This document shows positions 8,115 through 58,092 of a stretch of 64,000 bases of DNA, in pieces (positions within the stretch are counted from its first letter, which is position 1; each line of letters opens with the position of its first letter). The DNA comes from Fredinandcohnia onubensis. Lineage in GTDB: Bacteria; Bacillota; Bacilli; Bacillales; Bacillaceae_L. The stretch is from contig NZ_JAPSKV010000001.1 in the NCBI RefSeq assembly GCF_031181385.1, positions 62,001 to 126,000 on the forward strand, written 5' to 3'. The notes below the pieces were generated by a model, which was given only the letters and a program-made list of their open reading frames with translations, had not been told where the DNA came from and did not search any database. The position numbers were made by a program, and so were the translations under genes.

Positions 8115-8272
8115 TAGTGGCAGTAAATCTCGAATAGTGGCAGTATTTTTCGGATAGCGGCAGTAAATCTGAAATAGCGGCAGTACTTTTCTAATACTGG
8201 CAGAAAATCGGCTAGTGACAGTATTTTTCGTCTAGTGACAGTAACTTTTAAATAGTGACAGTAATCAGCGTC
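8115..8272. repeat. Intergenic tandem array A: 8 copies of ~20-bp unit TAG(T/C)G(G/A)CAGTA-N9
   Basis: Cores start at 8115, 8135, 8155, 8175, 8195, 8213, 8233, 8253. Confidence 0.95.
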
Positions 8273-8288
8273 CAGCCTCATGTTTTCG

Positions 8289-8340
8289 TACTAAAAACAC
8301 AGTATTTCCAAATTAAAAACAGGTATTCCGCACTAACCCC
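8289..8340. repeat. Intergenic tandem array B: ~2.5 copies of ~21-bp unit (C/T)TAAAAACA...
   Basis: CTAAAAAC at 8291, TTAAAAAC at 8313, CTAA at 8333. Confidence 0.5.
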
Positions 8341-9542
8341 TATAAAAAGAACGAAACCCACGTTGCAATCTTAATTTTAAACTTATTTTTTACCTTTAGT
8401 TCGTTGATTCGTTCGCGGGTGAGTTTTTCTGATGTATTAAAATCCTCTGTCACCATATTTTTGACCTCTTGAATCATATCTTTGTCATGAATATAGCAAT
8501 TAATTTCGTAGTTGGAGTAAAGACTTCTTTTATCAAAATTGGCCGTTCCGATATCGCAAAGCTTGTCATCAATGCAAATGACTTTTGCGTGGTAAAATCC
8601 CCGAGTGTACATATGAAACTGAATGCCAAGCTTTGATAGCTCGTCCATATATGGGATTGAAGCTTCTTTTACCAACGGATGATCTGGTTTTTTCGGTAAT
8701 AGGATGTGAATACGAACATTTCGTTGTGCGGCATCTATTAGTTCATTTTTGATTAGATTGCTTGGTACAAAATAAGGGGAGCCGATGATGATTTCTTGTT
8801 CCGCCTGTTTGAGCATATTGATAAAATGACCTTCGAGAAATGCCCCATTGGTAGAAATGAGCTTTGTTTTAGATTTTCCTTTAGGAAGTTGCGGAAAATA
8901 GGCATTTTGGTTTTCAATTTTCTCATTTGTGGAGTCATACCAGTCCTCCAAAAACTGAGTTTGAAGGTCCGCGACTCCTTCACCAGTTAACTTCAAATGA
9001 TAATCCCGCCAGAACCCGAATTTAGGATCTTCCCCAAGATATTCTTTTCCAATATTGAAGCCGCCAATATAACCCGTTTTTCCATCAATAACAGAAATTT
9101 TTCGATGATTACGTGCATTCAGCTTATAAAAAAGGTACGGAAATGTGGGCTTATTGCTATAGGCAAACGAAACTCCTGATTGAGCCAAGTCTTTTTCCAT
9201 TTCCTTTGTGACATTGTGGCTGCCGACCCAATCTAAAAGCAAGCGAACCTTCACACCTTGTTCGGCCTTTTGTTTCATGAGCGAGACGAATTCTTTACTG
9301 AAGTCATCATCTTGCAGAATATAAAATTCGACATGGATATGTTCTTGTGCGTTTTGAATATCTATAAATAGATCTTTGAAGAGTGTTTCTCCTGTTGAAT
9401 AAAGGGAAATGTTACTGTCGCGTAGTGGGAATTCCTCGTCCTCTTGTTTTTTTAGGTGACTTTTTCTTCCGAGACTGTAATCAAGGCGGAGCAACAGTAA
9501 TAGAATAATGATAATAAGGACAATCCAGAAGATAGCTCGCAA
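8340..9542 (-). CDS. Phospholipase D family protein, cardiolipin synthase-like
   Basis: Two HxK motifs (NHRKISVIDGKTGYIGGFN and FYHAKVICIDDKLCDIGTANFDKRS); likely TTG start at 9542 after AGGAGGGG (track ORF extends to 9584). Confidence 0.85.
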   Translation of the reverse strand: MRAIFWIVLIIIILLLLLRLDYSLGRKSHLKKQEDEEFPLRDSNISLYSTGETLFKDLFIDIQNAQEHIHVEFYILQDDDFSKEFVSLMKQKAEQGVKVRLLLDWVGSHNVTKEMEKDLAQSGVSFAYSNKPTFPYLFYKLNARNHRKISVIDGKTGYIGGFNIGKEYLGEDPKFGFWRDYHLKLTGEGVADLQTQFLEDWYDSTNEKIENQNAYFPQLPKGKSKTKLISTNGAFLEGHFINMLKQAEQEIIIGSPYFVPSNLIKNELIDAAQRNVRIHILLPKKPDHPLVKEASIPYMDELSKLGIQFHMYTRGFYHAKVICIDDKLCDIGTANFDKRSLYSNYEINCYIHDKDMIQEVKNMVTEDFNTSEKLTRERINELKVKNKFKIKIATWVSFFL

Positions 9543-9637
9543 ATATACCCCTCCTATGATGAGGTTGTGCTTTATGACGTTCACTTAGTTTATACGAAAG
9601 TAGAATTGATTATTTAAGGATTTTAAAGAAAAAGTTG

Positions 9638-9665
9638 TTGACTGAATGCTCATTCATTATATAAT
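9638..9665 (+). promoter_or_regulatory. fadF promoter with overlapping FadR-type operator
   Basis: -35 TTGACT (9638-9643), 16 bp, -10 TATAAT (9660-9665); TGACTGAATGCTCATTCA (9639-9656) matches recalled B. subtilis FadR consensus TGAATGAWTANTCATTCA at 16/18. Confidence 0.7.
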
Positions 9666-9729
9666 GGAGATACGAACTATATAGTCAGAAAATTAATTCC
9701 ATTAATAAATTTTAGAAAGGGGTTAAAAA

Positions 9730-57106: not shown

Positions 57107-57511
57107 ATGAAGACAGTAAAAGTCAATGTCGTGACTCCTGATGGCCCAGTTTATGAAGCTGATGTGGAAATGGTAAGTGCCAAGGCTCAAAGCGGTGAGC
57201 TTGGTATCCTACCAGGACATATTCCTATGGTTGCTCCTCTTCAAGTAGGGGCAGTTAGACTTAAGAAGGAAGGCAACACTGAACTTGTGGCTGTAAGTGG
57301 AGGCTTTCTCGAGGTTCGTCCTGACCAAGTAACAATCCTTGCTCAAGCTGCCGAAACAGCTGAAGCGATTGACGTTGAACGTGCTAGCGAAGCGAAAAAG
57401 CGCGCAGAACAACGCTTGCAGGCGAAACAAGATAATGTAGATTTTAAACGAGCAGAGCTCGCTTTAAAACGTGCCATCAATCGATTAAACGTAACACAAA
57501 ACAAATACTAA
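57107..57511 (+). CDS. atpC: F1Fo ATP synthase subunit epsilon
   Basis: [36 protein letters not shown]. Confidence 0.97.
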
Positions 57512-57522
57512 TTTTAGTATAG

Positions 57523-57559
57523 GGAACCCCCAGAGGCCTTTAGCTTCTGGGGGTTTTTT
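57523..57559 (+). terminator. atp operon terminator
   Basis: GAACCCCCAGAggcctttagcTTCTGGGGGTTTTTT. Confidence 0.9.
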
Positions 57560-57709
57560 GTCGTTGTGGGGCGGTGAAGTATCATGGGAACCGCTTGGAA
57601 TATTGCAAATGTTGATGGAAATAAAATAACATTGAAAAATTGAAATTATCCGCTGATAGGGTGTGTAAATGTGGGTTGGGCTACTCTTAGGTAGACCTTT
57701 TTTCGTTTT

Positions 57710-57811
57710 TGGACAATAATTTTGATTTATGGCTGATAATTTTTGTATATGGACAATACTCTATTAGTATAGGACGATATTTAAAATTTATGGACAATAG
57801 AGTTTTGGGGG
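57710..57811. repeat. Intergenic tandem array G: 5 copies of a 20-21 bp unit T(G/A)GGAC(A)ATA-N11
   Basis: Cores start at 57710, 57730, 57750, 57770, 57791. Confidence 0.9.
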
Positions 57812-57880
57812 TATGAATGGAGTTGGGAGATGGAGGTTTTGGAGAGGCAATCTTACCGTCAAAAGGAATAAATGTATGTT

Positions 57881-58092
57881 GTGAGGATATGAATAATGCG
57901 TAATCGTACCCTCATATTGGTGAAATTGCTTGTGTGATGGTATGAAAAGGGGTTATTTGTACCATCGTGAACGAGTAGTTGATTGAGTGAGGGTACGAAA
58001 ACAATGTAATCACACCCTTGGAGTAAATGGATTGCTTGGTTGAGGGTATGAAAAATTATTGAAAATCTAGATTCGTACTATTGTTCTATGAA
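57881..58092. repeat. Intergenic tandem array H: 4 copies of a 53-bp inverted-repeat unit GAGGGTA(T/C)GA...TCGTACCCTC
   Basis: GTGAGG-type cores at 57881, 57934, 57987, 58040 (exactly 53 bp). Confidence 0.92.

Follow-up and report, generated by a model that had tools for sequence, protein, structure and literature searches.

Intergenic word arrays with steps of 20-21 and 52-53 bp in Fredinandcohnia onubensis and other Bacillales: candidate phased protein-binding sites at gene 3' ends

Seven arrays in one 64-kb window

Why should short words of different sequence be repeated at the same two spacings in the intergenic DNA of one bacterial chromosome? The question is raised by a 64-kb stretch of Fredinandcohnia onubensis (hereafter the window: G000:C5:62001-126000, from a home genome, G000, of 4.26 Mb in 39 contigs), in which an earlier note had described eight intergenic arrays following a single period grammar of 20-21 or 52-53 bp. 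Repeats in bacterial intergenic DNA are usually put down to neutral minisatellites or to defunct mobile elements. The window contains eight chains of an identical 7-mer (at least three copies at a constant step), against 0.05 per Markov shuffle used as control.

At the first locus, array A (8114..8263, plus strand) consists of eight units of TAGTG[GA]CAGTA at steps of 20, 20, 20, 20, 18, 20 and 20 bp, and lies immediately 3' of an intrinsic terminator (hairpin and T run; 8085..8112, plus strand) located by a terminator scan of the sequence. The adjacent region reported as array B (8290..8334, plus strand) holds two units of TAAAAACA 22 bp apart, at 8292 and 8314, was missed by both 7-mer chain detectors (window and genome-sample runs) and is down to about one unit in one sister species. 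With two units only, B is not confirmed as an array; the other seven, A and C to H, stand, and the statement that each locus holds two arrays does not extend to A/B. At the second locus, array C (34787..34900, plus strand; six units of AATTGCGTTTTA at steps of 20 or 21 bp) immediately follows the intrinsic terminator of a prmC-like gene, found by the same scan at 34740..34771 on the plus strand, and array D (35735..36022, no strand assigned) is made of 52-bp units with the dyad GTC(A/G)GAAT-N9-ATTCTGAC, counted as 4.8 copies (93% matches) or as about 5.5 units; relatives of array D lie elsewhere in the home genome (G000:C8:38763-39349). The third locus pairs array E (46130..46226, plus strand), five units of TTAGGGCACAATT with a period of exactly 21 immediately 3' of the glyA terminator (46090..46127, plus strand, same scan), with array F (46258..46310, plus strand), three units of TGTCCGATATA, also at exactly 21, which number six in a sister species. 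The last locus carries array G (57708..57800, plus strand), with five units of TATGGACAATA/TATGGCTGATA at steps of 20-21 bp, and array H (57881..58092, no strand assigned), with four degenerate 53-bp units bearing the dyad TGAGGGTA...TACCCTCA, whose word recurs as a clean 7-unit array at G000:C4:195253-195577.

All seven confirmed arrays lie in non-coding DNA, as reported, and are flanked by genes for a PLD-domain protein, PrmC, SpoIIR, GlyA, Upp, AtpC and NADH-quinone subunit 3. No array in the window was matched by Rfam at gathering score; the matches were two Bacillaceae-1 RNAs (RF01690; 49720-49786 and 58450-58516, 8.7 kb apart on either side of the atp operon) and one L31-Firmicutes ribosomal protein leader (RF03156; 30917-30951). 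The cores of the 20-21-bp arrays are loosely alike (a GC-rich part, then CAA/GATAA), and a single deep word behind all of them was considered but not retained.

Two step classes and a reused vocabulary

An unbiased census of 1.03 Mb of the 4.26-Mb home genome, including 139 kb of non-coding DNA, was carried out with a detector of 7-mers in at least three copies at a constant step of 11-130 bp. It returned 35 non-coding arrays, of which 14 have a period of 20-21 bp, 5 of 40-42, 11 of 52-53 and 5 another one, when shuffled intergenic DNA yields 0-5 arrays (mean about 1, all periods pooled) and coding regions of the same sample show no comparable excess at 20-21 or 52-53 bp. In an autocorrelation analysis covering 129 kb of home-genome intergenic sequence, the only lags more than 4 SD over shuffles are 20, 21, 40, 52, 53, 63, 104, 106, 154 and 159 bp. 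Periods are hence not evenly spread, an even spread being the outcome that the earlier note had named as speaking against it: the excess is confined to 20-21, 52-53 and their multiples. Counted over all arrays, short-class steps measure 20 bp in 136 and 21 bp in 105 of 252 cases (241 together), and long-class steps 52 bp in 110 and 53 bp in 56 of 175. The proposed grammar thus recurs genome-wide and, as detailed below, in other genera, which supports the reading of the repeats as phased site arrays; the phenomenon is real and larger than first described. The idea that the cores of an array share a single helix face, taking 10.5 bp per turn, is borne out for periods of 21 and 52-53 but not for the word of array A, whose period of 20 entails a drift of about 34 degrees per unit.

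Although core words do differ from array to array within the window, they are not private to single arrays genome-wide: a limited set of words comes back, each at 6-13 loci and with its own period. Arrays of TTAGGGCACAATT occur at six loci of the home genome with 21-bp steps in 26 of 29 cases; their cores are as similar between loci as within them (identity 0.81 in both), when their tails reach 0.38 within and 0.32 between loci, for 0.26 expected from composition, and 19 of the 20 sites at no more than one mismatch in the 4.26 Mb lie inside the six arrays. Likewise, TAGTG[GA]CAGTA is found at 12-13 loci, at 20-bp steps in 44 of 53 cases, with core identities of 0.85 within and 0.84 between loci and tail identities of 0.45 and 0.42, respectively, vs 0.31 at random; since these tails are above random, some of these loci may share ancestry. 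AATTGCGTTTTA occurs at 10 loci of the home genome with steps of 20/21. In the unbiased sample, several longer words are array-only (for instance AGTGGCAGTA, 6/6, and ATGGACAATA, 4/4), whereas others, such as TGTCCGATAT and AACGCAATT, are found outside arrays too. Each word carries its step size across loci, which makes the period a property of the word, and the same word with the same word-specific period at unlinked loci is what would be expected from recognition in trans and not from simple local slippage. The near-random tails between loci also uphold the argument that the arrays are not copies of one recently copied element.

Some arrays resemble one another beyond their cores. Three unlinked arrays of the A word in the home genome (C5:70115, C5:191241 and C28:60022) consist of a TAGTGGCAGTA block, one 18-19 bp step and a TAGTGACAGTA block, an architecture that points to common descent or to a pair of related readers. 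Arrays of the TTAGGGCACAATT type have a TGTCC[GC]ATAT-type array after them at three places, namely window 46130-46310, G000 C5:537098-537257 and the G007 counterpart of the home C5:251 locus, as if the two came as ordered pairs. Finally, two AATTGCG arrays 1.2 kb apart (G000 C12:122453-122544 and C12:123673-123785) have their units in common, tails included, which implies that whole arrays can be copied by local duplication.

Turnover, placement and distribution

Between species, arrays change mostly by whole units. Array A is kept in six Fredinandcohnia species (home and five sisters) with 2-8 units, and indels within arrays between the home genome and G004 are mostly 20, 21, 38 or 63 bp long, which implies gain or loss of whole units. 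The array at 176071 went from three units to about one in a sister species in which the array at 167776 is lost, and at the atpC-nuoA and C5:251 loci a different array replaces another in one species, indicating that arrays are born and die. In orthologous units, tails diverge about two times faster than cores (p = 0.006 for G006, 0.0002 for G002 and 0.09 for G004); relative to the intergenic flank as a whole, where terminators and promoters are included, cores do not diverge more slowly (0.070 vs 0.084, 0.081 vs 0.089 and 0.152 vs 0.162), so that purifying selection on them appears modest.

Such turnover is what functionless minisatellites would display, if the replication or repair machinery set the duplication length near 2 and 5 helical turns and the copies then decayed by mutation and slipped by whole units. 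Besides the whole-unit indels between species (20, 21, 38 and 63 bp) and the rise and death of arrays at single loci, an exact 21-bp duplication within one array (C5:251388) and the near-identical units of several 52-53 arrays agree with this account. Slippage alone, however, should leave locally homogenised whole units and unrelated words between loci, whereas the 20-21 arrays are alike in their cores only, with near-random tails, individual words recur at 6-13 unlinked loci, and the period is word-specific (20 vs 21). On this basis, we consider the minisatellite explanation rather unlikely.

With regard to placement, 20-21 arrays adjoin gene 3' ends: they were found in 6/45 intergenic regions between convergent genes and in 8/235 between codirectional ones, but in none of the 86 divergent regions. 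The association with termination that had been suggested holds only as this nearness, for in the terminator scan a terminator abuts some arrays (A, C and E, on their 5' side) but not all. Orientation relative to the neighbouring gene is mixed for both TTAGGGCACAATT and TAGTG[GA]CAGTA arrays, so that a fixed orientation to transcription was discarded, as was a fixed orientation to replication: by GC skew, TTAGGGCACAATT lies on the leading strand at 6 of 6 loci and TAGTG[GA]CAGTA at only 6 of 13.

A position downstream of genes could also befit RNA elements, that is, repeats acting in 3' untranslated RNA as processing sites, protein-binding sites or rows of hairpins, and the dyads of some 52-53 arrays do fold well (z -3.1 to -4.7). 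Yet fold tests revealed no RNA structure in 20-21 arrays (z +0.67, -1.12) and no folding signal in other 52-53 arrays (z +1.4, -0.2), which discards RNA structure as a common basis; the arrays of one word face both ways relative to the upstream gene, and several arrays sit beyond a terminator, where RNA is expected to be rare. RNA elements are accordingly a very improbable explanation, and the mixed orientation and unstructured 20-21 class likewise disfavour the transcript 3'-end processing envisaged by the earlier note.

Beyond the home genome, a survey of 1.5 Mb of Bacillales DNA, made up of 80 named loci surrounding upp, yielded 37 non-coding arrays, 18 of them at 20-21 bp and 4 at 52, with arrays in Metabacillus, Neobacillus, Cytobacillus, Paenisporosarcina, Indiicoccus and Bacillus species. 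At the upp loci of the Geobacillus/Anoxybacillus group, Planococcus/Planomicrobium and Peribacillus, no array of either class was detected in about 28-30 kb of non-coding DNA each, for which the home density predicts about 6 arrays; the distribution is therefore patchy, and many genera, even sister species, are without a given word. Three Planococcus/Planomicrobium loci (L142, L144 and L167) carry non-coding arrays with periods of 120-124 bp.

The 52-bp word was sought as TCCTTCAT N30-60 TCCTTCAT (allowing steps of 38-68 bp) in 249 genomes of the order. Among the matches listed, the step is 52 almost exclusively in array-rich genomes, and 51 in G108; the home genome holds 85 pairs, G131 the highest number, 186, and G008 a single one, with a reversed-pattern control near zero in array-rich genomes. 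The TCCTTCAT...ATGAAGGA form of this word is present in many families at spacing 52. In a sample of the matches listed for three copies of ACGCAA, with steps of 10-40 allowed, 55 of 56 steps measured 20-21 bp in G102, G115 and G118, which represent three other families. The longest array of the 20 class encountered repeats GAGACGCAAATATC 35 times with steps of 20-21 bp (G002:C2, 186105 of the reversed syntenic stretch). In related genera, an 11-unit array of period 50 (L211 from 3016, G010) and a 27-unit array of period 52 (L218 from 1, G015) were observed; between genera, the long class spans 50-53 bp (period 50 in G010, 51 in G108).

Words common to several loci, and a 52-bp word that is plentiful in certain genomes while their relatives hardly have it (85 pairs at home, 186 in G131, 1 in G008), might alternatively point to an ancient dispersed or mobile repeat family of the REP/bcr kind, copied to many intergenic sites and retaining the cores needed for mobility, to which the architecture common to three arrays of the A word (a GGC block and then a GAC block, with a step of 18-19 bp between them) could be added. 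Nevertheless, neither flanks nor ends are common to the loci and tails are near random between them, and two periods are fixed over many words. A search of 2.9 million viral contigs for exact copies of the 52-bp dyad found none, and array D and a 52-bp array had no match in plasmids, which led us to reject a plasmid or phage origin. A Y1 transposase/RAYT as driver found no support either: Y1_Tnp is present in 24 of 25 genomes, array-rich and array-poor alike, and thus does not separate them, the array-rich G225 having a broken fragment only. We regard a mobile family as unlikely.

Candidate protein filaments and known systems

The words and their step sizes are constant at many unlinked places while the intervening letters are near random, and we favor, at close to even confidence, a reading of the arrays as phased, abutting binding sites, next to gene 3' ends, for architectural DNA proteins that recognise specific sequences. 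A small set of proteins, each recognising its own 11-15 bp word, would pack head to tail, with a constant pitch of 20, 20/21 or 21 bp on direct sites and of 52-53 bp on palindromic ones, so that an array would carry a short nucleoprotein filament. Packing is suggested by the near-random tails, the word-specific pitch, the near absence of the TTAGGGCACAATT word elsewhere, the indifference to strand and the 3'-end location. Since 20 bp leaves the helix face at 10.5 bp per turn when 21 and 52-53 keep it, the pitch may be set by protein footprints that abut, and not by a strictly shared face. The filament would then serve as punctuation at the DNA level, either a roadblock or a supercoil/loop boundary behind leaky terminators, a role that seems the most likely because arrays lie in gaps past the 3' ends of genes and no array of the 20-21 class was found in promoter-only gaps. 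We infer binding by proteins and their punctuation role alike from this genomic pattern, and the proteins themselves are hypothetical.

More tentatively, Bacillales could possess an unrecognised layer of chromosome architecture, in which every lineage has words of its own and every word a dedicated reader, a filament-forming protein of pitch 20, 21 or 52-53 bp. The words would mark the 3' ends of genes, where they would provide roadblocks or boundaries between domains, and would drift along with their readers. Many words with two strict steps across genera, each word constant at unlinked loci and separated by near-random letters, are the expected mark of recognition in trans; if proteins do bind, gene 3' ends in these bacteria have a layer of DNA-protein punctuation that has so far stood outside terminator studies.

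A literature search of open-licence papers returned no report of many-word arrays with two fixed periods and no named family for them. CRISPR arrays combine cas genes with repeats of about 24-47 bp that alternate with unique spacers of comparable length, a format that units of 20-21 bp, cores of 11-15 bp and tails of 6-9 bp do not fit. The copy number of the arrays shifts by whole units between species as in VNTRs/minisatellites, but the 20-21 class conserves only half the unit and its words recur at unlinked loci. The TAACTGA direct repeats of Beggiatoaceae are comparable as an intergenic repeated word in hundreds of sets with a patchy distribution; this 7-bp word, however, lies upstream of start codons, where it is read as a translational signal, and not at gene 3' ends (PMC4679880). 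REP/BIME and bcr-type elements (PMC2267715) likewise lie dispersed in intergenic DNA close to the 3' ends of genes, and their palindromic units have a parallel in the 52-53 class, part of which bears dyads; by contrast, the 20-21 class has neither palindrome (z +0.67, -1.12) nor unit ends, and its periods are exact and word-specific.

Nearest in kind are the STAR elements of staphylococci and plasmid iterons. The former combine a 14-bp GC-rich motif, T(G/A/T)TGTTG(G/T)GGCCC(C/A), with spacers of 40-44 bp (period about 54-58); they are intergenic, with locus-specific, lineage-stable spacers and variable copy number at many loci, and their function is unknown (PMC3532100). Our arrays share with them the intergenic conserved core, the locus-stable spacers, the variable copy number and the many loci per genome, but STAR elements have one motif where many words and two strict periods (20-21 and 52-53) are found here. 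Membership was rejected, as the window has one match at one mismatch (6700, outside the arrays; chance 0.67) and long-class steps are 52 (110/175) and 53 (56/175) rather than 54-58 bp. Iterons (review: PMC4980987) are direct repeats bound by Rep, about two helical turns apart, with a conserved core per unit and presumed cooperative in-phase binding, to which the 20-21 class, with 241 of 252 steps at 20 or 21, corresponds in its phasing. Whereas an iteron set is tied to a single replication origin and the accompanying rep gene, the arrays of the window are flanked by ordinary genes, the same word recurs at 6-13 loci, and several words are distributed over tens of chromosomal loci.
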